In this document: positions 3,589 to 25,796 of the stretch, piece after piece
Numbering within the stretch: the first letter of the stretch is position 1
Layout of the letters: every line of letters starts with the position of its first letter
Virus record (IMG/VR): IMGVR_UViG_3300042542_000516
Location: 1 to 25,999 of that record
Strand: one strand, 5' to 3'
Source of the DNA: a virus
DNA length: 25,999 bases
The notes under the pieces: model-generated
Told to the model about the DNA's origin: nothing
The model's database searches: none
Seen by the model: the letters and a program-made list of their open reading frames with translations, nothing else
Program-made: the position numbers and the translations under genes

Positions 3589-4295
3589 GCAACGGCGTCG
3601 CGAGCATCGCGCTCGAAGTCAAGTTCGCGGCCGATAAGCCGATGGGCTCGTTCTCGGGCTACGGCGCGGTCTACGGGAACATCGACGAAGGCGGCGACAT
3701 GATCACGCCAGGCGCGATGGCGCGTAGCCTCGCGTCGTGGTCGAGCAAGGGTATGCTCCCTGCCATGTATTACAACCACGACCGCAGCAAAGGCGCGGTC
3801 GGCGTCTGGGAGAAGATGAGCGAGGACCAGAACGGTCTGCATGTCGAGGGCCGGATCATCGGCCTCGACACCGACGAAGGGAAGATGACCTACGCGCGGC
3901 TGCGCGAGGGTGCCATCAAGGGCATGAGCATCGGATACCGCGTACCTGCCGGCGGGTCGAAGATGGGCACGGGCCGCACCGGAGAACCGCGCCGCTGGCT
4001 CAAGGCCATCGATCTGCGCGAGGTCTCGGTGGTCGATGACCCCATGAACCCGCTCGCGAAGCTCGCCTACCTCAAGAGCGCGCCCGCGCTCATTCTCGAC
4101 GCGCGCGGCCTCGAGGCCGCTCTGCGCGACGAACACAAGATGTCCATCGCCGAGGCCAAGAGCCTCGTCGCGGTGGTCCGTCGTCACCTGCGCGATGCAG
4201 GCGACGAATACGCCGACGCCTCTCGTGATGACGAGGTCGAGGCTCTGGTCGCGTCGCTCAAGCGCGCGGCTTCCATCCTCTCCACGAAAGGTTGA
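3585..4295 (+). CDS. HK97-family prohead protease
   Basis: This serine protease is packaged inside the prohead and cleaves the capsid scaffold domain, and then itself, during maturation. The 236-residue product shows the family's landmarks in order: GYGAVYGNIDEGGDMITPGA (25-44), the catalytic histidine in YYNHD (H65), the catalytic serine in GMSIGY (S115), and the acidic strand LREVSVVDDP (144-153), which probably supplies the third residue. The remaining 80 residues are helical and charged, as expected of the part removed by self-processing. The ATG at 3585 was chosen because it overlaps the portal stop as ATGA and follows GAGGAGCTCGGAG. It lies directly before the capsid gene, the canonical order. 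Confidence 0.95.
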   Translation: MSNGVASIALEVKFAADKPMGSFSGYGAVYGNIDEGGDMITPGAMARSLASWSSKGMLPAMYYNHDRSKGAVGVWEKMSEDQNGLHVEGRIIGLDTDEGKMTYARLREGAIKGMSIGYRVPAGGSKMGTGRTGEPRRWLKAIDLREVSVVDDPMNPLAKLAYLKSAPALILDARGLEAALRDEHKMSIAEAKSLVAVVRRHLRDAGDEYADASRDDEVEALVASLKRAASILSTKG

Positions 4296-4299
4296 TCCA

Positions 4300-5565
4300 A
4301 TGGACACCAGCGAACTGAAGAGCGCGGTCGACGCTGTCGGCTCCGCTTTCGAAGCCTTCAAGAAGACCAACGACGCGCGCCTCGCCGAGATCGAGCGCAA
4401 GGGCAGCGCCGACGTCGTCGTGCGCGACAAGCTCGACCGCATCGAGGCGAGCCTGTCGAAGTACGAGACGCTGAACCAGAAGCTCGTGCAGGCCGAGCTG
4501 GCCGCGAAGAACGCGAGCGAGACCGCCGCCGATCTGGCCGCGAAGCTCAACCGCCTGGGCTCGGGCAAGTCCGCCCCGGCCGCCGACGAGGTCAAGGCCC
4601 GGGCCAACGACTGGATGCGCGCCGTGGTCCGCTCGATCGCGCGCGGCGACGGCTCGCTGTCCGAGAGCGAGCGTAAGTCGCTCGACAGCGTGCAGGCCGA
4701 GATGAAGACCCTGTCGCTCGCGCCCGACACGCTCGGCGGCTACCTCGCGCCGACCGAGTACGTCCGCGAAATCATCAAGGGCGTCGTCGAGATCACGCCG
4801 TTCCGCGCGGTCGCGCGCACGCGCCAGACCACGCAGAAGGCCATCCAGCTGCCGAAGCGCACGGGCACCTTCTCCGCGCAGTGGGTCCAGGAGCAGGGCA
4901 CGAAGTCGGAAACGACCGGCCTGACCTACGGCATGGACGAGATCCCGACGCACGAGATGTTCGCGCTCTGCGACATCACGAACCAGATGCTCGAAGACAC
5001 GGCGTTCAACATGGAAGCCGAGGTCCGCGCCGAGGCGACCGAGCAGTTCGCGAAGGCCGAGGGCGCCGCGTTCCTGTCGGGTTCCGGCGTCGGCCGTCCG
5101 TTCGGCTTCCTCAGCAACGCCTCGATCTCGACGGTCAACAGCGGCGCCGCGGCGGCGCTGACGGCCGACGGCATCCTGCGGGTCTTCTACGACCTGGAGA
5201 CCGACTACGCGGCCCGCGCCGTTTGGATGGCGAACCGCGCGACCATCGGCGAGATCCGGCGCCTGAAGGACGGCACCGGCCAGTACCTGTGGGCGCCGGG
5301 CCTGTCCGGCGGCGTCCCGAACACGATCAACGGCGCGCCGTATGTCGAGGCTCCCGACATGCCCAGCGTCGGCGCGTCGAACAAGCCGCTGGCATTCGGC
5401 GACTTCCGTCGCGCCTACGTGATCGTCGATCGGATCGCGATGGAAATGCTGCGCGACCCGTACACGCAGGCCACGAGCGGCGCGGTCCGCATGATCTTCC
5501 GCCGCCGCGTCGGCGGTCAGGTCGTGCTGCCCGAGGCGATCGTCCTCCAGAACGTCGCTCTCTGA
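4300..5565 (+). CDS. HK97-fold major capsid protein with N-terminal scaffold domain
   Basis: This 421-residue protein forms the icosahedral shell. Residues 1 to about 90 are charged and helical with a coiled-coil pattern (about 20-85), matching the delta domain that replaces a separate scaffold protein. The mature part begins around LSLAPDTLGGYLAPTEY (138-154), the usual start of the conserved capsid domain. It continues through RTGTFSAQWVQEQGTKSE and EGAAFLSGSGVGRPFGFL, both family hallmarks. The protease cleavage site probably lies near residues 100-140; the exact bond cannot be read from sequence. The start has GAAAGG at 4286-4291 and lies five bases after the protease stop. No separate scaffold gene is present, consistent with the fused arrangement. 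Confidence 0.96.
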   Translation: MDTSELKSAVDAVGSAFEAFKKTNDARLAEIERKGSADVVVRDKLDRIEASLSKYETLNQKLVQAELAAKNASETAADLAAKLNRLGSGKSAPAADEVKARANDWMRAVVRSIARGDGSLSESERKSLDSVQAEMKTLSLAPDTLGGYLAPTEYVREIIKGVVEITPFRAVARTRQTTQKAIQLPKRTGTFSAQWVQEQGTKSETTGLTYGMDEIPTHEMFALCDITNQMLEDTAFNMEAEVRAEATEQFAKAEGAAFLSGSGVGRPFGFLSNASISTVNSGAAAALTADGILRVFYDLETDYAARAVWMANRATIGEIRRLKDGTGQYLWAPGLSGGVPNTINGAPYVEAPDMPSVGASNKPLAFGDFRRAYVIVDRIAMEMLRDPYTQATSGAVRMIFRRRVGGQVVLPEAIVLQNVAL

Positions 5566-7928: not shown

Positions 7929-8257
7929 ACACGCGCGGCGCGCTTGATCGGCTCGGCCAGGTCGCGCAGCTTCGACGCCTGACCGGCATCGGCGCGAACC
8001 AGGTCTGGCACGAGGTCACGCTGCGCGTCTTCGCGCGCCAGTTTCGCGCGCAGGAGATCGTGCCGGGGTCTGGTCTCCAGCAGGGCGACCGGCAGGTCAT
8101 CGCACACCACGCCGAGATCGACGCCGCGCAATGGCCGGCTCCTCCGCGCCGTGACGACAAGCTGCTGCTCGAAGGACGGCTGCTCAACGTGCAGTCGGTC
8201 GAGACGGTGCGCGTCGCCGAGGCGGTCGAACGCTACAACATGGTCTGCCGGGGATGA
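7925..8257 (+). CDS. Head-tail adaptor / head-closure protein
   Basis: This 110-residue protein has the size and strand layout of phage head-tail joining proteins, which close the connector after packaging and accept the tail. Strands are visible in HEVTLRVFARQFRAQEIVP, DRQVIAHHAEIDAAQW and DDKLLLEGRLLNVQSVETV, a pattern of barrel strands with a conserved charged turn before the C-terminal pair. There is no catalytic motif. The ATG at 7925 was chosen because it overlaps the preceding stop as ATGA. The position between connector and tail-completion genes supports the call more strongly than the sequence alone. Confidence 0.75.
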   Translation: MNTRGALDRLGQVAQLRRLTGIGANQVWHEVTLRVFARQFRAQEIVPGSGLQQGDRQVIAHHAEIDAAQWPAPPRRDDKLLLEGRLLNVQSVETVRVAEAVERYNMVCRG

Positions 8258-8916
8258 GGGCCTACCGCTCGCCGCGCGTCTTCGCGCGCGAGATCACGGT
8301 GGCATCGAAGAACCTGTTCCCGGCTCAGGTCGAGGCGCTGCTGGAAGACGCCGCGCGCCGCGAGAAGGCACGCGTCCTGGCCGAGCAGACGCAACGCGCG
8401 GGTATCGCGCCGACCACCGAAACCATCGTGGACGGACGGCGCGGTGCGCCGATCGACGCGGCGACGGACAAGTCAACGATCATCATCGAATACGAGTACC
8501 TCCGCGAGATCGCCGCATGGCTCCTCGACACGCTGGAGCGCGGCGCGGTGCGCGGGCCGACCGGCGCTTACGCGCGCTCGTTCATCCTGCTGGTCGATGG
8601 CGTCGAGGCCGAGGTCGGCGCGATCAAGCACGAAACGCGCTCGTTCGTGATCGCCAACACGCGCCCATATGCGCGGCGGCTGGAGGTCGGAAAGACACGC
8701 CGCGGCGATGCCTTCATCCTCGATGACAGCCGCTATCGGTTCATCGACAGCATCGCGAAGGTGGCCAAGGGCCGCTTCGGCAACATGGCCCAGGTCCGGC
8801 ACGCATTCGTTGGACTGGACAACGCCTATCGCCTACGCCGCGCGCAGGGCAAGCGCCGCGATCGCCAAGCTGGCGCGGAGATGACGTATCCCGCGATCCG
8901 CGTCTCGAAACTCTGA
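8254..8916 (+). CDS. Tail completion / neck protein (HK97 gp10-like)
   Basis: This 220-residue protein probably sits at the head-proximal end of the tail and helps join tail to head. The N-terminal half is helical and charged. The core (TGAYARSFILLVDGVE, then RSFVIANTRPYARRLEVGK) matches the conserved part of gp10-like proteins, where a sentence such as 'NTRPYARRLE' precedes the closing strands. The C-terminus is unusually basic (RLRRAQGKRRDRQ). It is longer than HK97 gp10, which is roughly 140-150 residues. It starts in an ATGA overlap with the head-closure gene and ends directly before a strong AGGAGG site, so the coupled neck series stops here. Confidence 0.75.
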   Translation: MRAYRSPRVFAREITVASKNLFPAQVEALLEDAARREKARVLAEQTQRAGIAPTTETIVDGRRGAPIDAATDKSTIIIEYEYLREIAAWLLDTLERGAVRGPTGAYARSFILLVDGVEAEVGAIKHETRSFVIANTRPYARRLEVGKTRRGDAFILDDSRYRFIDSIAKVAKGRFGNMAQVRHAFVGLDNAYRLRRAQGKRRDRQAGAEMTYPAIRVSKL

Positions 8917-8928
8917 GGAGGCCCCGTC

Positions 8929-9360
8929 ATGGCCGTGACGATTTCGCTCTACAACCACACCACCAAGCTGTTCGCCGAGGGATCGAATGCCTCGGGCGAC
9001 ACCTACAAGGTGAAGCTCTACACGGCGGCGACCTTCGACGCCACGCACACCACGCTCGCGGGCGTCGGCGGCACCGAGGCCACGACCGGCACCGGCTACA
9101 CCGCCGGCGGCCCGGCGCTGACCAACGTCACTGTGCCCACGGTCACCACCAACGATGCGCGCTTCGACGCCGACGACGTCACGCTGACCGCTTCGGGCGG
9201 CTCGATCACGGCGAGCTACGGCGTGATCTACAACGACACCGACGCGAACGATCCGCCGCTCGCGTTCATCGACTTTGACGGCTCGCAGAGCGCCGGCGCT
9301 GGAACCGACTTCAAGATCATCTGGGACGCCAACGGCATCTTCTCGTTCACGGTGGCCTGA
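8929..9360 (+). CDS. Conserved phage structural protein, first gene of the accessory block
   Basis: A 143-residue beta-rich protein: MAVTISLYNHTTKLF, then SGDTYKVKLYTAATF, a variable middle and DPPLAFIDFDGSQSAG near the end. This pattern recurs in many phage tail regions, but I know of no established function. Asp, Asn, Thr and Gly dominate, and no signal or membrane segment is seen. AGGAGG at 8916-8921, seven bases upstream of the ATG, is one of the strongest ribosome sites in the window and suggests abundant expression. It opens a run of seven genes between the neck proteins and the tail terminator. A tail decoration or fibre-attachment protein would fit and is an inference. Confidence 0.78.
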   Translation: MAVTISLYNHTTKLFAEGSNASGDTYKVKLYTAATFDATHTTLAGVGGTEATTGTGYTAGGPALTNVTVPTVTTNDARFDADDVTLTASGGSITASYGVIYNDTDANDPPLAFIDFDGSQSAGAGTDFKIIWDANGIFSFTVA

Positions 9361-9362
9361 TA

Positions 9363-9773
9363 ATGGCTGACAACGTCGCCATCACTCCAGGTTCGGGCGC
9401 GATAGCAGCCGCCGACGACATCGGCGGCGTGCTCTACCAGCGTGTCAAGGTCTCGCACGGAGCAGACGGCAGCGCGACGGATACGAGCGAGGCCGCGCCG
9501 CTACCGACGCAGGACACAAGCCTCTGGTGGATGCTCAATCGCATCTATCAGATGCTGGCTTCCCCGCGTGGCTACGACAAGTCGCTCCAGCGTCAGCGCG
9601 GGACGGTGGTCGTTGAAAGCGGCACGGTCACGACTGTCACAACGGTTACGACCTGTTCGACGGTGACGACTGTCAACAACATCGCCGCTTTCGGCAACGA
9701 GCAGCCGCAGATCATGGCCCGCGCGATGGCTCGCGCTTCCTGGCGCGCGAACGTGCGCGCGTGCATTTCCTGA
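9363..9773 (+). CDS. Phage structural protein with Thr-Val repeats
   Basis: A 136-residue protein. Its N-terminal part (YQRVKVSHGADGSATDTSEA, then APLPTQ) is a motif often seen in phage tail and neck-region proteins. A helical stretch follows (SLWWMLNRIYQMLASPRGYD). Residues about 85-104 are a low-complexity run of Thr and Val (GTVTTVTTVTTCSTVTTVNN), likely an extended or coiled fibrous segment. The C-terminus is basic and aromatic (MARASWRANVRACIS). The overall design, a head domain plus fibrous stalk, suits a trimeric virion appendage. No enzyme motif is present. The ATG lies two bases after the previous stop. Confidence 0.72.
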   Translation: MADNVAITPGSGAIAAADDIGGVLYQRVKVSHGADGSATDTSEAAPLPTQDTSLWWMLNRIYQMLASPRGYDKSLQRQRGTVVVESGTVTTVTTVTTCSTVTTVNNIAAFGNEQPQIMARAMARASWRANVRACIS

Positions 9774-9782
9774 GGTCTCCAG

Positions 9783-11393
9783 ATGGCAAACACATTCAAA
9801 AAAGTCATCGACCGTCTGGAGTGGGTGCAGACCTCGCCCTCGCCAAACGCGCATGCTGCCGGAACGCTCATGTGCTGCGACATGCGAAGCGATGTCTCGC
9901 GGCATCCGTTCGTGCAGAACCTGATCTCGACCACGGTCCTCAATCGCTACAACATCGTCACGAAGTCCTGGCAGCTATCAATCAACCCCGGCGCTGCTGC
10001 TGTCGCGGCAGGCGCGGCAATGTGCTTCGTCCCCAGCTTCGCCGCTGTCGGAACCATCGCTGCGGGCGCGACAACGACCAGCTTCGCGCTCTCGACGGCG
10101 CTACCGACCGCTGTCGGCGTCAACATGCTGGCGAACCGTGGCGGCTCGGGTGACTACGGCTTCAAGATCCGCATCACCGACACCACGGCGGGCAAAGTCG
10201 AGGAACGCTTCATCGTCGGGAATACGTCCGGCACGACGCCGACGATCACCGTCGATAACGCCTTCACGTTCACGCCCGCGACCGGCGCGCGATACGAACT
10301 GCTTTCGGGCCGCGTCATCATGCTTTCGAGCGGCGCTCTCGCAGCGGCGTCGTGGCGCAGCTACGAGGTCGCAGCGAATACGCTGGCGAATCTATCGACC
10401 ACCAACCTTGTCGCTACCGTTGCCACGGATAGCGCGCTGCTGGTCATGGACGAGCAGTATACGCCCTACAACAACGAGCCCGGCGAGGGCATGATCAAGG
10501 GCGGCTTCACATACGACACGAACATCGTGTCGCGGAAGGCCCTGACAGCCACCGCAACAGGCGCGTCTTCGCTGACCGGACAAGCGGCGGACGGCGACGC
10601 TGTCGTCGTGGCGAACGAATACCGGAATTTTCAGATCCGCATCGTTCAAGATACTGGCACCCCTGCTGCGGTGGGCCAGCGTCGCATCATCGCCTCGCAC
10701 ACGGCTGGCGCGTCGCCGGTCTACACGCTCGGCACCGCATGGACGACGACGCCATCCAGCACGGCGAAATACGTGATCGAGCAGCCGAATCTGATTGTCC
10801 TGCGGACCAGCGGCAACACGACGACCTACACCTACAACTACACTGATGCGACCATCAACAACGGAACGAACAGCATCGCGTCGAATGCTTGGTCCACGGC
10901 GTATTTCGGCGCTGGCCCGGCGAACAATGCAGCAGGATGCTTGTGGGCGCCGTCGTTCGGCATTCAGCCCGATCCCGCACGCAATGCTCGCCACAGCTTC
11001 AATTATTTCTTCCGTGGCGGCGCGACAACGCTCGATGTCCTCGACATCGCGAATACGATCACCGGCACATGGACGGGCGCCATCACCTACGACGGGGCGC
11101 AGAACGCGACCGGTGCTGGCACGACAGGATGCTATGCCCCTTATGGGGGCGAGGGCCGCTTCACGTATCTGAACATCTACGTCGCCTCGCAGGTCAATCA
11201 GATATATCGGTTCGACGCGAAGAACCGAGTGCTTTCGCCGCATGTTTCGACCGATTTCCTGCAATCCGGCACCGCTGCGATCGGTCAGCGAATGGCGGCG
11301 TTCGCCGCGATCGACGGATCGGACAAGTACGACGTGATCCTGCTCCAGTCGCATCTCTCGACGGTCACGCAGGAATTGTTGGTCCTGTTCTGA
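9783..11393 (+). CDS. Large conserved phage structural protein of unknown function
   Basis: At 536 residues this is the largest product of the accessory block. It is strand-rich and Ala/Thr/Gly-rich. Two related segments are visible: GDYGFKIRITDTTAGKVEER (about 122-141) with FIVGNTSGTTPTITVDNAF, and YRNFQIRIVQDTGTPAAVGQ (about 280-299) with RRIIASHTAGASPVYTLGTA. This suggests an internal duplication of a beta domain of about 150 residues. The C-terminal third (GEGRFTYLNIYVASQVNQIY) looks like another beta domain. No signal peptide or catalytic motif is seen. The start has TGAGGT at 9771-9776. A tail-surface or appendage protein is likely from size, composition and context; the specific role is unknown. 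Confidence 0.75.
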   Translation: MANTFKKVIDRLEWVQTSPSPNAHAAGTLMCCDMRSDVSRHPFVQNLISTTVLNRYNIVTKSWQLSINPGAAAVAAGAAMCFVPSFAAVGTIAAGATTTSFALSTALPTAVGVNMLANRGGSGDYGFKIRITDTTAGKVEERFIVGNTSGTTPTITVDNAFTFTPATGARYELLSGRVIMLSSGALAAASWRSYEVAANTLANLSTTNLVATVATDSALLVMDEQYTPYNNEPGEGMIKGGFTYDTNIVSRKALTATATGASSLTGQAADGDAVVVANEYRNFQIRIVQDTGTPAAVGQRRIIASHTAGASPVYTLGTAWTTTPSSTAKYVIEQPNLIVLRTSGNTTTYTYNYTDATINNGTNSIASNAWSTAYFGAGPANNAAGCLWAPSFGIQPDPARNARHSFNYFFRGGATTLDVLDIANTITGTWTGAITYDGAQNATGAGTTGCYAPYGGEGRFTYLNIYVASQVNQIYRFDAKNRVLSPHVSTDFLQSGTAAIGQRMAAFAAIDGSDKYDVILLQSHLSTVTQELLVLF

Positions 11394-11557
11394 TGTCCAT
11401 CTCCGATCTGATCCGCCTCGCGCAGAACCGACTCGCCACGCTCAACTCTGCGCGGGCGACCGCTGACAGGAATGGTGAGCCGGATCGCGTCGCCGCACTC
11501 GATGCCGAAATCACCGAGACCGAGGCGACGCTCGAAACCCTCCGGGGGCTCGCATGA
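11393..11557 (+). CDS. Small coiled-coil protein
   Basis: This 54-residue protein is entirely helical, with heptad-like spacing of leucine, alanine and isoleucine (SDLIRLAQNRLATLNSARA, then RVAALDAEITETEATLETLR) and many charges. It is long enough for one hairpin of two helices. Start (TGATG at 11391) and stop (ATGA at 11554) overlap both neighbours, a strong sign that it is translated. Possible roles are a fibre-assembly chaperone or a linker for the large protein upstream. Neither is shown by sequence. Confidence 0.7.
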   Translation: MSISDLIRLAQNRLATLNSARATADRNGEPDRVAALDAEITETEATLETLRGLA

Positions 11558-11991
11558 CTCTCGCCGACCGCCTCGCGCAGACCGACCTCGCGGACCTGCC
11601 CGACTGGCAGGCTGCGGCGGCGCTGAACCAGCCCGATCCGACGCTGCCGGCGGTCGAGACCTGGGTTGAAACCAAGATCGGCATCGGCGCGATTCTCGAC
11701 ACGCTCGGGCCGACTGCCGGGGCGACCTTTCTCGACGCCCTGGAGACGCTGGCCGAGACGACGCCGGTGGTCCGGTGGGGACTGGAACTGATCCGCGGTC
11801 CCGGCCTCGACCTGTCGCGGCCATCGGCTCGTTCGCAGCTCGCGACGCTGGTCGCTGGCCGGATCCTGACCCAGGAAGAGGGCGAGGCGCTGCTGGCCCT
11901 GTCGCGGCGCACGCGGCATCCGTCATGGGCTGAGGCCAATGGTGTGACGGTTGACGCGCGGGCAGTAGGCCTGGCGCGCGGAGGTCGGTGA
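11554..11991 (+). CDS. Helical phage protein of unknown function
   Basis: A 145-residue, mostly helical protein. Its start (MTLADRLAQTDLADLPDWQA) is followed by a second acidic helical region (GAILDTLGPTAGATFLDAL) and by LTQEEGEALLALSRRTRHPS, a typical helix-turn-helix-like segment near the C-terminus that may only be part of a helical bundle. I do not recognise the family. It overlaps the small coiled-coil gene by ATGA and the following gene by TGATG, so the three are probably co-translated. The helical design contrasts with the beta-rich genes on both sides, which hints at an assembly or chaperone role (inference). Confidence 0.68.
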   Translation: MTLADRLAQTDLADLPDWQAAAALNQPDPTLPAVETWVETKIGIGAILDTLGPTAGATFLDALETLAETTPVVRWGLELIRGPGLDLSRPSARSQLATLVAGRILTQEEGEALLALSRRTRHPSWAEANGVTVDARAVGLARGGR

Positions 11992-12401
11992 TGGCAGTCG
12001 CGAAATGGGCCACGCCCAGCACCCGCAGCAGCAACATCCTCTCGACGGTTGCGAACTCGTTAGCGAATGCGTCGGAAAGCGCAGTCGTCACGTATGACAA
12101 CAGCACCAACCGCGATCTCTACGCGCTGTTCACGCTCAAGCTCGGCTCGATCACGCCATCGACCAAAGGATCGGTCTCGATCCGCGTGACGATCAACGAC
12201 GGCACCGATACGAGCGACAAGGTCGGCGGCGATGTCTACGTCCTGCCGCTGACGAGCGGCGCGTCGGCCAAGGTCAACGTCGTGCAGGTCAGGCTGCCGC
12301 CGTATTCGCTCAGGCTATCGGTGGTCAACAACGCGGGCGTGACGCTCGCCGCGAGCGGCAACGAACTGTATGTCCGGCCATGGAACGAGGACGTCACCTG
12401 A
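11991..12401 (+). CDS. Small beta-rich phage tail-region protein
   Basis: A 136-residue protein with strands in SESAVVTYDNSTNRDLYALF, KGSVSIRVTINDGTDTSD, GGDVYVLPLTSG and YSLRLSVVNNAGVTLAASG. It resembles small virion proteins found next to receptor-binding proteins in siphoviruses; no function is assigned. ATG at 11991 is preferred over the adjacent GTG at 11988 because GGAGG at 11980-11984 is then six bases upstream, and it gives the usual TGATG overlap. The stop lies one base before the next ATG, so the product probably works with the lectin-like protein, perhaps as its base or chaperone. Confidence 0.7.
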   Translation: MAVAKWATPSTRSSNILSTVANSLANASESAVVTYDNSTNRDLYALFTLKLGSITPSTKGSVSIRVTINDGTDTSDKVGGDVYVLPLTSGASAKVNVVQVRLPPYSLRLSVVNNAGVTLAASGNELYVRPWNEDVT

Positions 12402-12402
12402 C

Positions 12403-13155
12403 ATGCCGCGCGGCTTCACCGACTACGACAGCGCGCGGATCCAGGGGCGGCTGTGGACGCCATTGATGTCGTCCAAGATCCGCGTGTGGTTGGACGGCCG
12501 CGCTCCGGACACTATGACGCTAGAGGCCGGTGGCAAGATTTCATCTTGGCGGGATAGGTTTGGTAGAAACCTTACGCAATCGGTAGACGCAAACCGACCA
12601 TTGCTCCAATTTGATTCCGGAGGATACCCAAACGGGGTCGGCGGCGTTGCTGGTGCTTCACTGGGAACATCTTCCGTTTTGTCTGGAACAACATACACAT
12701 TTGTTTTGCTTTTGCTGGATGCCGGAACAAGCACCGATTTAGTTCCGTTTTACAATGGGAACGGCGGATCGAGCGGATACGGAGCAATTTACAACTATGC
12801 TTCGAACAACGCATATGGCGGCCTGCATGGTGGAGTGCAGTTTCTTGCGCCAGCAACTTCAAGAAGCATTGGGTCCGTTATCTGCCATTCGCAATACTAC
12901 ACTGGATCGGGAAGCGACTACAGAATCGACATTAACAACGTTAGCACGCTTTTCAGCGCAGGTATCAACAACCCAAGCGGAACGCTTTCCGTAGGCGACT
13001 CTCCGACAATGTTTGGTTGCATCATGGCCGATTCCGTTTTGTCGCAGTATGAGCGAGAACAGGCAGAAGCATTCCTTTGGTGGCATCATGGATTTGGAGA
13101 TCAGATCCCTAAGGTGAACTTGTTCTCCAACCGCCCGCCGCTGATCGGGGACTGA
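12403..13155 (+). CDS. Concanavalin A/LamG-like virion protein, candidate receptor-binding protein
   Basis: This 250-residue protein reads like a LamG-type lectin fold: VWLDGRAPDTMTLEAGGKIS, then SWRDRFGRNLTQSVDANRP, a strand-rich core, and YEREQAEAFLWWHHGFG near the C-terminus, which recalls the closing helix of phage lectin-like domains. Such domains bind surface glycans or decorate tails. Bases about 12500-13110 are visibly less GC-rich than both flanks (24 of 60 in 12661-12720 against 43 of 60 in 12241-12300), while the first 90 and last 45 bases match the flanks. The middle thus looks like an imported cassette in an older frame. The receptor-binding role is inferred from fold and mosaicism. 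Confidence 0.72.
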   Translation: MPRGFTDYDSARIQGRLWTPLMSSKIRVWLDGRAPDTMTLEAGGKISSWRDRFGRNLTQSVDANRPLLQFDSGGYPNGVGGVAGASLGTSSVLSGTTYTFVLLLLDAGTSTDLVPFYNGNGGSSGYGAIYNYASNNAYGGLHGGVQFLAPATSRSIGSVICHSQYYTGSGSDYRIDINNVSTLFSAGINNPSGTLSVGDSPTMFGCIMADSVLSQYEREQAEAFLWWHHGFGDQIPKVNLFSNRPPLIGD

Positions 13156-13156
13156 G

Positions 13157-14446
13157 ATGCTGAGGACGCGCGCGCCGGGCTTTGCGGCTCTGTACCCGAC
13201 GCCCGCCACCATCAACGTCCCGTCCGCCTCGATCACGATATCCGCGACCGAGCCGCGCGTCAGCGTCGGGCCGTATCCGACAGGCCTGCAGGGCCTTCTC
13301 TTCCTCGTCGCTCACACATACGGCGCGATCGGCGTCAACGTCGCCTGCCCGACCGCCACGATCTCGCTGGCAGCCAACGCGCCGCAGATCTCGACCGGCA
13401 AGTCCATCTCGGTCCCGGCCGCGGCCATCGCACTCGCCGCGGTGGCGCCCGCCGTCCGGTCGGGCAAGTCCGTTGCGGCGCCTGCCGTCACGATCGCAAT
13501 CGCCGCCGCCGCGCCCACCATCCAGGCCGCAACCGGCGCATCCGTTGCCTGCCCTGCGGCCACGATCGCTCTGGCCGCATCTGCGCCGACGCTGGTCGCT
13601 GGCAAGTCGATCGCAGCCCCGGCCGCCGCGATCGCTCTGGCTGCCGCCGCGCCGCTGGTCGGGGGCGGCAAGTCGATCTCGGCTCCGGCCGCGGTCATCG
13701 CACTGTCGGCCGCCGCGCCCACCATCCAAGCCTCCTCTGGCGTCGATCTGCAGGTTCCGACCGCCGCGATCCTGATGGGCGGAGAAACGCCTGCGATCTC
13801 GGCGGGCAAGTCCATCGCCGCGCCCGGCGCCGCTGTCGTGCTGGCGGCCCTGGCGCCGCAGCTCGCGATGGGCAAGTCGATCCAGGTTCCTGCCGCAGCG
13901 GTCACCATCTCGGCCGCGTCGCCCGCCATCGCGGCAGGCAAGGCGATCGAGGTCGCCGCCGCGGCGATCGCCATCGGGGCGCTGCCGCCGGTCATTGAGC
14001 TGGTCGCGCCGCCCGGAACCCTGCGCGTGATCCGCGACGCCATCAGGACCGCCTGGGATGCGCGCTGGCCGCACGGAAGCGGATACCGGGTGCTCTGGCA
14101 CCAGAACGACAACGAGAGCGTCCCAGAGCCCGGAGAAGCCCGCGCATGGCTGCATATCTCGGTCGACTTCGACGTCGAGGACGTCCGCGGCTTCGCTGGC
14201 GGTCGCCACGCCGCTGATCGCGAGTGGCGCGGCACGGTCGAGATCCGCGTCATGGCCGAGACCGGCTACGGCGACGACGACGCGCTCGACCTGCTCGACG
14301 ACGCGCTGGCCGTGTTCCGGTCGCGCCGCGAGGCCGGGCTCTCGTTCATCGACGGCGAGGCCGAGCTGTTCGACAGCGCCACCGAAGACGGCGCGTGGAT
14401 GGTCCGCGGCACCGCGATCCCCTGGGCCTACGAGTACCGGGCATGA
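13157..14446 (+). CDS. Repeat domain fused to a tail-terminator-like domain
   Basis: A 429-residue two-part protein. Residues about 15-283 hold eleven repeats of 22-24 residues with consensus GKSI-x-VPAAAIALAA-x-AP-x-I. Nine regular units start at 81, 103, 127, 149, 171, 195, 217, 239 and 261, and two divergent ones precede them. Residues about 288-429 align along their full length with the whole next gene: WDARWPHGSGYRVLWHQN here and WDANWPHGDIYRVVWHEN there. That domain type (DUF4128-like) is associated with phage tail terminators, which cap the tail tube. The fused form is unusual; it may place repeat fibres at the neck or tail top. The repeats are Ala-rich with alternating hydrophobics, so beta structure is likely. 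GGGG at 13147-13150 serves as ribosome site. Confidence 0.82.
   Translation: MLRTRAPGFAALYPTPATINVPSASITISATEPRVSVGPYPTGLQGLLFLVAHTYGAIGVNVACPTATISLAANAPQISTGKSISVPAAAIALAAVAPAVRSGKSVAAPAVTIAIAAAAPTIQAATGASVACPAATIALAASAPTLVAGKSIAAPAAAIALAAAAPLVGGGKSISAPAAVIALSAAAPTIQASSGVDLQVPTAAILMGGETPAISAGKSIAAPGAAVVLAALAPQLAMGKSIQVPAAAVTISAASPAIAAGKAIEVAAAAIAIGALPPVIELVAPPGTLRVIRDAIRTAWDARWPHGSGYRVLWHQNDNESVPEPGEARAWLHISVDFDVEDVRGFAGGRHAADREWRGTVEIRVMAETGYGDDDALDLLDDALAVFRSRREAGLSFIDGEAELFDSATEDGAWMVRGTAIPWAYEYRA
13397..14002 (+). repeat. Coding tandem repeat, 66-72 bp period, nine regular units
   Basis: In-frame repeats inside the preceding CDS. Unit starts are visible as GGCAAGTC-type sequences at 13397, 13463, 13601, 13667, 13805, 13871 and 13937, with divergent units at 13535 and 13739. 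Spacing is 66 bp, or 72 bp where the unit ends in a two-residue insertion. All lengths are multiples of three. Units differ mainly at third positions and at the variable residues, so the array is old rather than freshly expanded. Confidence 0.85.
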
Positions 14447-14877
14447 GCCTGCGCAGCACGATCCGCAACGCGATCAGGGCCGTCTGGGACGCGAATTGGC
14501 CGCACGGCGACATCTACCGCGTGGTCTGGCACGAGAACGCGCATCCGGACACACCGACGCCCGGCGAGGTGCGCCACTGGCTTCATGCTCATGTCGAGTT
14601 CGCGCGCGAAGAGATGCGCGCGTTCGGCGGCGGCTCGCTCGCCAATGAGCGGCTCTGGTTCGGCGCGGTCGCGGTGCGCGTGTTTTCCGAGGTCGGCATC
14701 GGCGAGGATGTCACCCTCGATCTGCTCAATGCCGCCGTCGTGGCGCTTCGCGCGCGACGCGCCGGCAATCTGACCTTCGTGGGGCCGATCATCGGCATCG
14801 CGGATACCGCTAGATCGAACGGCGCGTGGTATGGTCGCGGCGCGTCGATCCCGTTCCAATATCGCTTCCAGGGCTAA
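14443..14877 (+). CDS. Tail-terminator-like protein (DUF4128-like)
   Basis: This 144-residue protein is the free-standing form of the domain fused to repeats in the gene just upstream. Shared landmarks in order are WPHGDIYRVVWHEN (about 19-32), PGEVRHWLHAHVEF, a central strand beginning AVAVRVFSEVGIGED, and GAWYGRGASIPFQYRF at the end. Size and position directly before the tail tube gene match phage tail terminators such as lambda gpU, which form a ring on the top of the tail and stop tube growth. It starts in an ATGA overlap with its paralogue. It is the better candidate for the true terminator because it lacks the extra domain. Assignment relies on order and domain resemblance. Confidence 0.78.
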   Translation: MSLRSTIRNAIRAVWDANWPHGDIYRVVWHENAHPDTPTPGEVRHWLHAHVEFAREEMRAFGGGSLANERLWFGAVAVRVFSEVGIGEDVTLDLLNAAVVALRARRAGNLTFVGPIIGIADTARSNGAWYGRGASIPFQYRFQG

Positions 14878-14889
14878 AGGAGACCCGAC

Positions 14890-16146
14890 ATGCCCATTTC
14901 CGAAGGCGTGCAGTCACGCATCGTCTACAAGGCCTACAGCAGCGGGTCGATCACGGCCAACAGTGAGCCGAACACCGCGACCGACCCCGGCACGTCCGGC
15001 GGCCAGGTGCTGCGGCGCGTGTCGTCGTCGCTGAACCTGGTGAAGGACAGCTATCAGTCCGAGGAAATCAGGACCGATCGGCAGATCGCGGACTTCCGCC
15101 ACGGGTTGCGGCGCGTCGAGGGCGCGATCTCGGGCGAGCTTTCGCCGTCCACCTATTTCGAGTTGCTCGTCGCCGCGCACCGCGACGCGGCGGTGTCGGC
15201 GCTGTCGCTGAGCAACACGCAGTTCACCAGCGTCACCAGCGACAGCTCGACCTCGGCCTTCGTCTTCACTGCGGGCGACCCGGTGACGAGCGGTCTGCGC
15301 GTCGGCGACATCATCCGCTTCACGAACCTCGCGACGACGGCGAACAACGATCGGAACTTCGTGATCCGGGCCTTCGGTGGCACGAGCAACCGCACGGTGA
15401 CGGTGTCGCCCGCTCCGACCACCGACGCGGTGGCGGATACCTCGTTCAACTTGTCGCGTCCCGGCAAGACCACCGTCGTCCCGGCCAGCAGCTTCACCTC
15501 GAGGAAATTCGGCATCGAGGAGTACCGTGAGGATCTCGACCTCTCGCGCCTGTTCACCGAATGTCGCGTGTCCGGCTATTCGCTGTCGCTCCCGGCCACC
15601 GGCCTCTCGACGGTGGAGATCCCGATCATGGGGCGCAACGCGGTGTCGCTGTCCGCCGGGTCCGCGCCCTACTTCACCGCTCCGACCGCCGCGACGACGA
15701 CCTCGGCCTGCGCTTCGGCCAACGGTCTGATCCTGTCGCCGGACGCCGGCTCGTCGCCGCTCGGCATCGTGACCGGCATCGACATCGCGCTCGATCTCGA
15801 AGCCGAGATGCAAGCGGTGATCAATCAGAACATCGCGCCCGAGATCTTCCTGGGCCGCGCGAATGTGACCGGCACGGTGTCGGCGTTCGTCGAGGACTTC
15901 GCCCTCTTCAATGCCTTCCTGAACGAGAGCGAGCTACAGCTGATCGTGCGCGTGGACAGCGGCTCGGCGGCGAACGCCGACGCCATCTGCATCTACCTGC
16001 CGCGCGTCAAGCTCGGCGGCGCGGACATGCCGCTGTCCGGCGCGAACGGTCAGACGATCTCGCTGCCGTTCCAGGCGCTCCGCTACACCGGCAGCGTGGC
16101 GGGCCGCGACACCACGACGATCCGCATCCACGACACGGCGGCCTGA
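14890..16146 (+). CDS. Major tail tube protein
   Basis: This 418-residue protein likely stacks as rings to form the tail tube. Landmarks are SSSLNLVKDSYQSEEIRTDR near residues 46-65, the GELSPSTYFELLVAAHRDAA region, a mid-domain (GDIIRFTNLATTANNDRNF) and the C-terminal QTISLPFQALRYTGSVAGRD. The segment beginning LNLVKDSYQSEEI is typical of phage tail tube proteins of this class. AAGGAG at 14877-14882, seven bases before the ATG, is a strong ribosome site, fitting the need for many copies. It is longer than the lambda gpV tube core (about 160 residues conserved), and residues about 105-190 probably form an inserted surface domain. Confidence 0.9.
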   Translation: MPISEGVQSRIVYKAYSSGSITANSEPNTATDPGTSGGQVLRRVSSSLNLVKDSYQSEEIRTDRQIADFRHGLRRVEGAISGELSPSTYFELLVAAHRDAAVSALSLSNTQFTSVTSDSSTSAFVFTAGDPVTSGLRVGDIIRFTNLATTANNDRNFVIRAFGGTSNRTVTVSPAPTTDAVADTSFNLSRPGKTTVVPASSFTSRKFGIEEYREDLDLSRLFTECRVSGYSLSLPATGLSTVEIPIMGRNAVSLSAGSAPYFTAPTAATTTSACASANGLILSPDAGSSPLGIVTGIDIALDLEAEMQAVINQNIAPEIFLGRANVTGTVSAFVEDFALFNAFLNESELQLIVRVDSGSAANADAICIYLPRVKLGGADMPLSGANGQTISLPFQALRYTGSVAGRDTTTIRIHDTAA

Positions 16147-24363: not shown

Positions 24364-24630
24364 ATGCGTGCGCTCGTCGCCCTCCTGCTGGCGGCGACGC
24401 CAGCAATCGCCAACGCCTCCGTCTGCGCGCCGCTTGAGGATCTCGCCCGCGTCCTGAAGGACGACCACCAAGAAGTCCCGATCGCGATCGGCGACGCCCG
24501 CGGCGGACAGGTCATCGTGTTCTCGACGCGAGATGGTTCGTCATGGACGATCCTGCTGGTCGGCCAGTCCGGCCATGCCTGCGTCGCCGCCGATGGCGTC
24601 CGGTGGCGCCTGCCGGGTCGCGGTGCCTGA
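24364..24630 (+). CDS. Small exported protein of the lysis-region type
   Basis: An 88-residue protein with a clear signal peptide: M-R, a hydrophobic core ALVALLLAATPAIANAS and a likely cleavage after ANA (residues 16-18). The mature part of about 70 residues has cysteines in VCAPLE and HACVAA, a possible disulphide, and strands GGQVIVFSTRDGSSWTILLV. Similar small periplasmic proteins occur in GC-rich alphaproteobacterial phages and hosts beside lysis genes, function unknown. GAGG at 24354-24357, six bases before the ATG, is a good ribosome site. Its stop overlaps the phosphoesterase start as TGATG. It does not resemble spanin (Rz/Rz1) proteins. Confidence 0.75.
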   Translation: MRALVALLLAATPAIANASVCAPLEDLARVLKDDHQEVPIAIGDARGGQVIVFSTRDGSSWTILLVGQSGHACVAADGVRWRLPGRGA

Positions 24631-25796
24631 TGCCGACGCCAAAGCTCAGCCGCGAAGAGGCGCTGCGGCGCATCGAGGCCATTGAGGCGGCCCTGCGCGC
24701 GGGCCACGCGCCGCCCGGCAGAACATCCGGTGCCGGGCGCCACGGCGCGCTCGCGGTGGCGTCCAACGCGCTGGGCCTGCCGGGAACATGGGGCAGCGAG
24801 AAGATCGGCCGCGTCGAGGCCGCTGCAGGCCGGTCGATCGACTGGTCGCTCTGGCCCGGCCGGGCGCCGGTGCAGCCGGTCGCGCCGCGGTTTGATCCGC
24901 CGGCGATCCCCGACGACGACATCCCGGTCGAGCAGCTGATCGACCAGCTGGCCGAGCGCTTCGGCAAGCGCGCGGAGAACGCGGCGGCGCGCAAATGGAT
25001 GCGCTTCTCGCTGCACGACGACGGCCCGTATCTGTTGGCCTTCGTGGGCGATCCGCACCTCGACGACAACGGCTGCAACTGGCCGCTCCTGAAGCGCGAC
25101 ATCGAGCTGATGCGCCGCCCGCATGTCCACGGCGTCATGCTCGGCGACGTCACGAACAACTGGTCGGGCAAGCTCCAGCGGCTCTACGCGCATCAGGACG
25201 TGACGCGCGACCGCGCTTGGAAGCTGGCCGAGTGGTTCTGGCGCGCTGTTCCGTGGCTGCTGCTGATCAAGGGCAACCACGACATCTGGTCGCAATCGCA
25301 CGGGCAAGGCGATCCGCTTGATTGGATGGCGCGCGGGTCTGCGGCGCTGGAGGACTGGCAGGCGCGCATCGAGGTCGCAGCCGGCGGCCACGTGCTGCGC
25401 GTTTGGGCCTCGCACGACTTCAAGGGCTCGTCGATCTACAACCCGCTACACGGCCCGATGCGAGCGCAGCGGTTCAGCGCAGGAGAGGCCGACATCCTGG
25501 CGGCGGGGCATCAACACCACTGGGAACTGTTCAGCGGCGAGGACGCCGACAAGACGTCCCGGCCGCATTGGCTGGTGCGCGCGCGTGGCTACAAGTTCCT
25601 CGACCCGCACGCAGACCGGCACCAGTACGCCTCGCAGCAGCACGGCGCGACCATCGCCGCGGTGGTCGATCCCGGCCGCGCAGGACCGGCGGCGGTGCAG
25701 TGCTACGCCGATCTGGCCGAGGCCTGCGAGATCCTCGCATTCAAGCGCCAGCGCTGGGAGGCCGACCGTGCCGCGCCGCCGAAACGCAAGCGATGA
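24630..25796 (+). CDS. Metallophosphoesterase with N-terminal helix-turn-helix-like domain
   Basis: A 388-residue protein. The N-terminal 75 residues (SREEALRRIEAIEAALRAGH, then LAVASNALGLPGTWGSEKIG) look like the helix-turn-helix module that phages place before catalytic domains. The catalytic part has every calcineurin-like motif in order: GDPHLDDNG (about 147-155), GDVTNNW (about 172-178), KGNHDIW (about 214-220), WASHDFKG (about 259-266) and AGHQHHW (about 292-298), so metal binding is intact. It would hydrolyse phosphoesters; substrate (protein, nucleotide or nucleic acid) cannot be told. The C-terminus is basic (PPKRKR). It starts in a TGATG overlap. Presence at the end of a structural operon rather than among early genes is notable. 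Confidence 0.88.
   Translation: MPTPKLSREEALRRIEAIEAALRAGHAPPGRTSGAGRHGALAVASNALGLPGTWGSEKIGRVEAAAGRSIDWSLWPGRAPVQPVAPRFDPPAIPDDDIPVEQLIDQLAERFGKRAENAAARKWMRFSLHDDGPYLLAFVGDPHLDDNGCNWPLLKRDIELMRRPHVHGVMLGDVTNNWSGKLQRLYAHQDVTRDRAWKLAEWFWRAVPWLLLIKGNHDIWSQSHGQGDPLDWMARGSAALEDWQARIEVAAGGHVLRVWASHDFKGSSIYNPLHGPMRAQRFSAGEADILAAGHQHHWELFSGEDADKTSRPHWLVRARGYKFLDPHADRHQYASQQHGATIAAVVDPGRAGPAAVQCYADLAEACEILAFKRQRWEADRAAPPKRKR

Follow-up and report, generated by a model that had tools for sequence, protein, structure and literature searches.

Tail terminators have so far been treated as invariant caps, one per phage. Known single terminators, namely lambda gpU, T5 p142, the terminator of T1, and SPP1 gp17, have the fold and the gene place before the tube gene that we observed for the protein named P0002 below, but they occur in a single copy and carry no repeat arm, unlike the gene pair P0001/P0002 reported here. 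In T5, the tip of loop 63-67 of p142 binds the tube, and the lumen-lining sheet of the terminator fold has the helices on its outer side (PMC11784142). Contractile systems provide cases in which a second terminator or terminator-like domain is present at the end of the tail: T4 (gp3/gp15) and P2 (gpR/gpS) possess separate tube and sheath terminators, and the PVC16 terminator includes a second terminator-like domain within one protein (PMC11784142). These resemble our locus in that respect, but in T4 and P2 the second protein ends the sheath, in PVC16 the second domain is inside a single protein, and none of them bears a repeat arm. Likewise, extra domains or proteins on the terminator ring are present in the neck of Staphylococcus phage 812, where the gp99 terminator has a beta-sandwich domain and gp56 is a terminator decoration protein (PMC12886913); phage 812, however, is a myophage with one terminator, and its decoration protein has not been described as paralogous to a terminator. 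Finally, appendages at the head-tail joint, the role proposed here for P0001, include the T4 wac whiskers, the XM1 gp40 spikes, phi29 gp12, and the TP901-1 neck passage structure, which, as described, lack the terminator domain base of P0001.

The stretch analysed (the window) is the entire virus record IMGVR_UViG_3300042542_000516, with a length of 25,999 bases. It carries two adjacent terminator genes, and the first of them is fused to an N-terminal repeat arm that is swapped among relatives, a sign that these uncultured tailed phages may bear an exchangeable appendage where head and tail join. The initial annotation knew of no described system with such a pair, and a search of open-licence papers by exact phrases likewise turned up no account of two or duplicated tail terminators.

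Two terminator genes and their surroundings

The features of the locus are given in Table 1. The ungapped alignment of P0001 residues 292-428 with P0002 residues 7-143 covered 137 residues at 47% identity (E 6e-43), a likeness far above chance, and the end-to-end alignment of the P0001 domain with P0002 spanned 143 residues with one gap, much as the initial annotation had described it. Both proteins matched the phrog_179 "tail terminator" profile (P0001 with E 8.7e-9 over residues 288-416, P0002 with E 2.5e-8 over residues 5-141), whereas neither matched a Pfam family, and exactly these two phrog_179 copies were found when the complete 25,999-base record was searched. The stop codon of P0001 and the start codon of P0002 share four bases (ATGA, 14443-14446). 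This overlap was retained in all relatives with upstream sequence, which favours coupled translation.

Table 1. Genes, domains, and repeats of the terminator locus, with positions in the window.
Feature	Position	Strand	Evidence
Tail completion gene (HK97 gp10 / Neck1-like)	8254..8916	+	phrog_16336
Cassette of further genes between the tail completion gene and P0001	8929..13155	+	placement compared with Bradyrhizobium phage ppBdUSDA122-1
Variable gene, lectin/LamG-like in appearance	12403..13155	+	phrog_10356 virion structural protein, E 5e-6
P0001, 429 aa, N-terminal repeat arm and C-terminal terminator-like domain	13157..14446	+	family match, kept in relatives
Hydrophobic insert LQGLLFLVAHTYGAIGV, P0001 residues 44-60	13286..13336	+	at differing places in most relatives
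Ten repeats of 22-24 residues, nearly contiguous, P0001 residues 64 to about 286	13346..14014	+	period 22, unit positions
Terminator-like domain of P0001 (residues 287-429) and stop	14015..14446	+	phrog_179, dN/dS about 0.15
P0002, 144 aa, canonical tail terminator	14443..14877	+	phrog_179, AlphaFold2, Foldseek
Major tail (tube) protein, relative of two-domain tube proteins	14890..16146	+	PF18906, E 5e-23

The AlphaFold2 model of P0002, built with 31 sequences from the window and the fetched loci, reached a pLDDT of 84 and a pTM of 0.82 and predicted a four-strand sheet with two flanking helices, which corresponds to the terminator fold. The best Foldseek matches in the PDB were terminators, including T5 p142 (E 6e-6), T1, and lambda gpU; the highest TM score (0.71) was obtained with the head-to-tail interface of phage FCWL1, and the fold also agreed with predicted viral structures. 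The full-length model of P0001, based on an alignment of only 16 sequences, had a pLDDT of 36, and a terminator fold of its C-terminal domain is implied by the 47% identity to P0002. The earlier assignment of the shared domain as terminator-like thus held by profile for both proteins and by gene position, and the structure check of P0002 gave a terminator-like fold rather than any other. The two domains differ in charge: that of P0001 is strongly acidic, with a net charge of -12 in the window and of -11 in relative L017, whereas the corresponding values for P0002 are +1 and -1, and this acidic shift could reflect a different binding site. The loop at P0002 residues 61-68, which joins the long strands, has glycines that are nearly invariant across the family and are retained in P0001 (FAGG), and we infer that it corresponds to the docking loop of T5 p142.

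Regarding which copy is the ordinary terminator, the P0002 gene is situated directly 5' of the tube gene, the usual terminator place. In five cultured phages with related tube proteins, namely Curvibacter P26059A, Limnohabitans DC31, Caulobacter DMCA, Bradyrhizobium ppBdUSDA122-1, and Stenotrophomonas A1432, there is one PHROG 179 terminator, 131-151 aa long, whose gene either immediately precedes the tube gene or lies one gene farther upstream, and the members from DMCA, ppBdUSDA122-1, and A1432 have no repeat arm, unlike P0001. Among more distant tube-protein relatives in IMG/VR, 22 of 27 showed one detectable terminator just upstream, while in the other five or so it went undetected by the profile, some of these contigs beginning too near the tube gene. 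All relatives outside the clade with a detectable terminator are therefore single-copy, with the gene in the same place, and the second copy is as unusual as first supposed. Because P0002 occupies this single-terminator place, P0001 is the added copy; the reverse assignment, in which P0001 would be the true terminator and P0002 a remnant, is contradicted by the gene position and by the relatives.

The tube protein gave further profile matches to 8xan (E 3e-57) and to P74-26 gp93 (E 0.002), and a profile comparison of its two halves detected no internal duplication. On the other side of the pair, the product of the lectin-like gene showed a weak, sub-threshold match to CBM_35_2; its first ~68 residues are kept, while the remainder is replaced in all close relatives except near-identical ones, and it is probably a virion adhesin. 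In ppBdUSDA122-1, the homologue of the tail completion gene (PHROG 16336) lies directly before the single terminator, whereas in the window the two are separated by 5.5 kb (8929-14446), of which P0001 is the last gene. Some genes of the intervening cassette probably encode virion proteins. One of its genes (9363-9773, with a product starting MADNVAITPG) encodes 136 aa in the window and several hundred residues in relatives L058 and L133, and a short tandem array of 18-base units lies within it at 9624-9680. The open frame at 24543-25796, located 3' of the tail genes, includes a metallophosphoesterase-like stretch (GDPHLDD, GNHD).

Conservation of the pair and exchange of the arm

A scan of IMG/VR yielded 54 loci with P0002 at 85-100% identity. 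The fused copy was present in every locus extending upstream, among them partial ones truncated where the contig begins, and the one locus without it starts inside P0002. The same pair was found on one contig of a metagenome-assembled genome (MAG) among the GTDB genome contigs. Searches of cultured phages by tblastn with P0001 and P0002 gave no matches. A phrog_179 scan of 274 genomes of the MAG's class returned two matches, both short open frames of 154-175 aa, and is insensitive here because it missed the MAG itself. An assembly artefact is ruled out because the same pair recurs on dozens of contigs drawn from numerous samples. The relatives bearing the pair are all close (P0002 at least 85% identical), and they thus represent one lineage rather than many independent tests. 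Across the 52 loci with both genes, the fused domain had a mean dN/dS of 0.15 and P0002 one of 0.12, indicating strong purifying selection and equal constraint on the two.

The repeat arm of P0001 comprises 11 units of the type AP-AAAIALAAxAPxIxxGKSI, the first at residue 21 and the other ten starting at residue 64, with a periodicity of 22 (shuffle z 12.9). The earlier figure of about 280 residues of repeats is roughly right, given that the hydrophobic stretch at 44-60 lies among the units; in relatives, this insert varies in position or is missing. No family in Pfam, PHROG, or the PDB was matched by the repeat part. The arm ahead of the terminator domain measures 199-425 aa in relatives and holds 6-15 units, a rough count made with a simple pattern. 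With a dN/dS of about 0.35-0.5 in pairs with more than a few changes, the repeat part is less constrained than the terminator domains; synonymous changes were favoured in the repeat frame in most pairs, which rules out that this frame is non-coding.

Comparison of individual loci at the nucleotide level indicated how the arm varies. In three relatives (L003, L004, and L005), the terminator domain, P0002, and the tube gene match the window at 100% identity, whereas the arms are only 73% identical and contain indels. An arm at 73% identity beside a fully identical flank shows that the arm is exchanged, with a breakpoint near the junction of arm and domain. In L052, the arm and its domain are 100% identical to those of the window, while P0002 is 87% identical, and a second breakpoint can thus lie between the two terminator copies. 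The fall from 100% to 87% takes place between 14027-14440 and 14443-14874 and is a sign of recombination there.

Possible roles of the fused copy

We propose, at a probability of roughly one half, that the terminator paralogue P0001 serves to dock a variable arm on the tail end that faces the head. P0002 would be the working terminator capping the tail tube, and P0001 would be a virion protein kept as a docking domain at the neck, its terminator fold lying in the same six-membered ring as P0002 or in a neighbouring one. The N-terminal repeats would project as an arm, possibly together with the variable lectin-like protein encoded upstream; since the helices of the fold lie outside the lumen-lining sheet, an arm placed before helix 1 could point outward. 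The arm is swapped among related phages while the putative docking domain stays constant, a pattern expected of a part that meets changing surfaces such as host cells, glycans, or the environment. The appendage anchor suggested in the initial annotation gains support from the swapped arm and the fixed anchor domain, as well as from the exchangeable extensions of two other terminators described below. If P0001 does anchor a fast-exchanging arm, the neck would join the tail tip as a site of contact diversification, and fused terminators would offer a handle for finding neck appendages in genomes.

One form of the docking reading has P0001 and P0002 alternating 3+3 in a hexamer on a three-subunit, pseudo-sixfold tube, giving three neck arms. 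The overlap of the two genes and the acidic and neutral character of the paralogues are compatible with such a mixed ring, as is the profile relationship of the tube protein to P74-26 gp93, whose rings are trimers of two-domain subunits (PMC10034513), making a 3+3 terminator ring possible. We nevertheless consider it unlikely, given that a homohexamer caps the trimeric tube of T5 (PMC11784142), that one terminator suffices in relatives with the same tube family, and that an internal duplication of the tube protein is undetectable by sequence. It is likewise doubtful that P0001 is a virion protein located off the neck, with the terminator fold reused to fix the arm to the side or tip of the tail or to the capsid. 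The different surface charge of its domain would fit such a place, many tail proteins use a tail tube domain whose fold is akin to that of terminators, and T5 p143 was located at the tail tip, contrary to what its gene position would suggest (PMC11784142), which means that a terminator-like fold alone does not prove a place at the neck. Against this stand the strong conservation of the domain, the retained docking-loop glycines, and a gene that adjoins the terminator and tube genes.

Two further explanations do without a neck appendage. P0001 could be an assembly or tail-length factor that loads the true terminator and is not retained, with the repeats acting as a scaffold; the translational overlap with P0002 would suit this, but repeats that are swapped and vary in length while the tube protein and the terminator remain unchanged are unlike a conserved assembly role, and we regard this explanation as improbable. 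Tandem paralogues are common in phages, and the pair might simply be an ordinary duplication without a distinct function and heading for loss, although retention in all relatives reaching upstream and a dN/dS of about 0.15 leave this with hardly any credibility.

History and parallel lineages

In the terminator tree, the fused copies, the single copies, and the terminator of L133 formed one group with 95/98 support, inside which the single copies and L133 were grouped at 81/97. As L133 is a long branch, the placement of the duplication before or after the split of L133 is not firm. This contig has a single terminator, and directly before it lies a free-standing Ala-rich repeat gene (3981-4478, period 21, z 5.9). 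It is plausible that a free, possibly homologous repeat gene beside the terminator came first and later gained its own terminator copy.

Additional terminators with extra domains, belonging to a separate lineage, were encountered on the contigs L136 (1664-2854) and L158 (3001-4128). These single terminators are 96% identical over 160 residues and end in different C-terminal extensions, of which that of L136 is LamG-like (PF13385, E 1e-5, just under the curated cut-off) and that of L158 is unassigned. As in P0001, a terminator domain bears an exchangeable extra domain; they differ from P0001 in being single-copy and in having the extension at the C-terminus. These contigs, two in number, lend independent support to the view that terminators serve as mounting points for exchangeable domains. 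A broader and more tentative possibility, to which we give clearly less than even weight, is that a duplicated terminator acts as a platform, with the swapped arms of a mixed or double ring forming a binding organelle that varies and sits at the tail's top instead of its tip, and that a second lineage achieves the same through domains on its sole terminator. Finally, a 770-residue protein for which no family was matched, with longer GWLGQLNRAP-like repeats, is encoded 5' of a single terminator in L132 (1401-3710).
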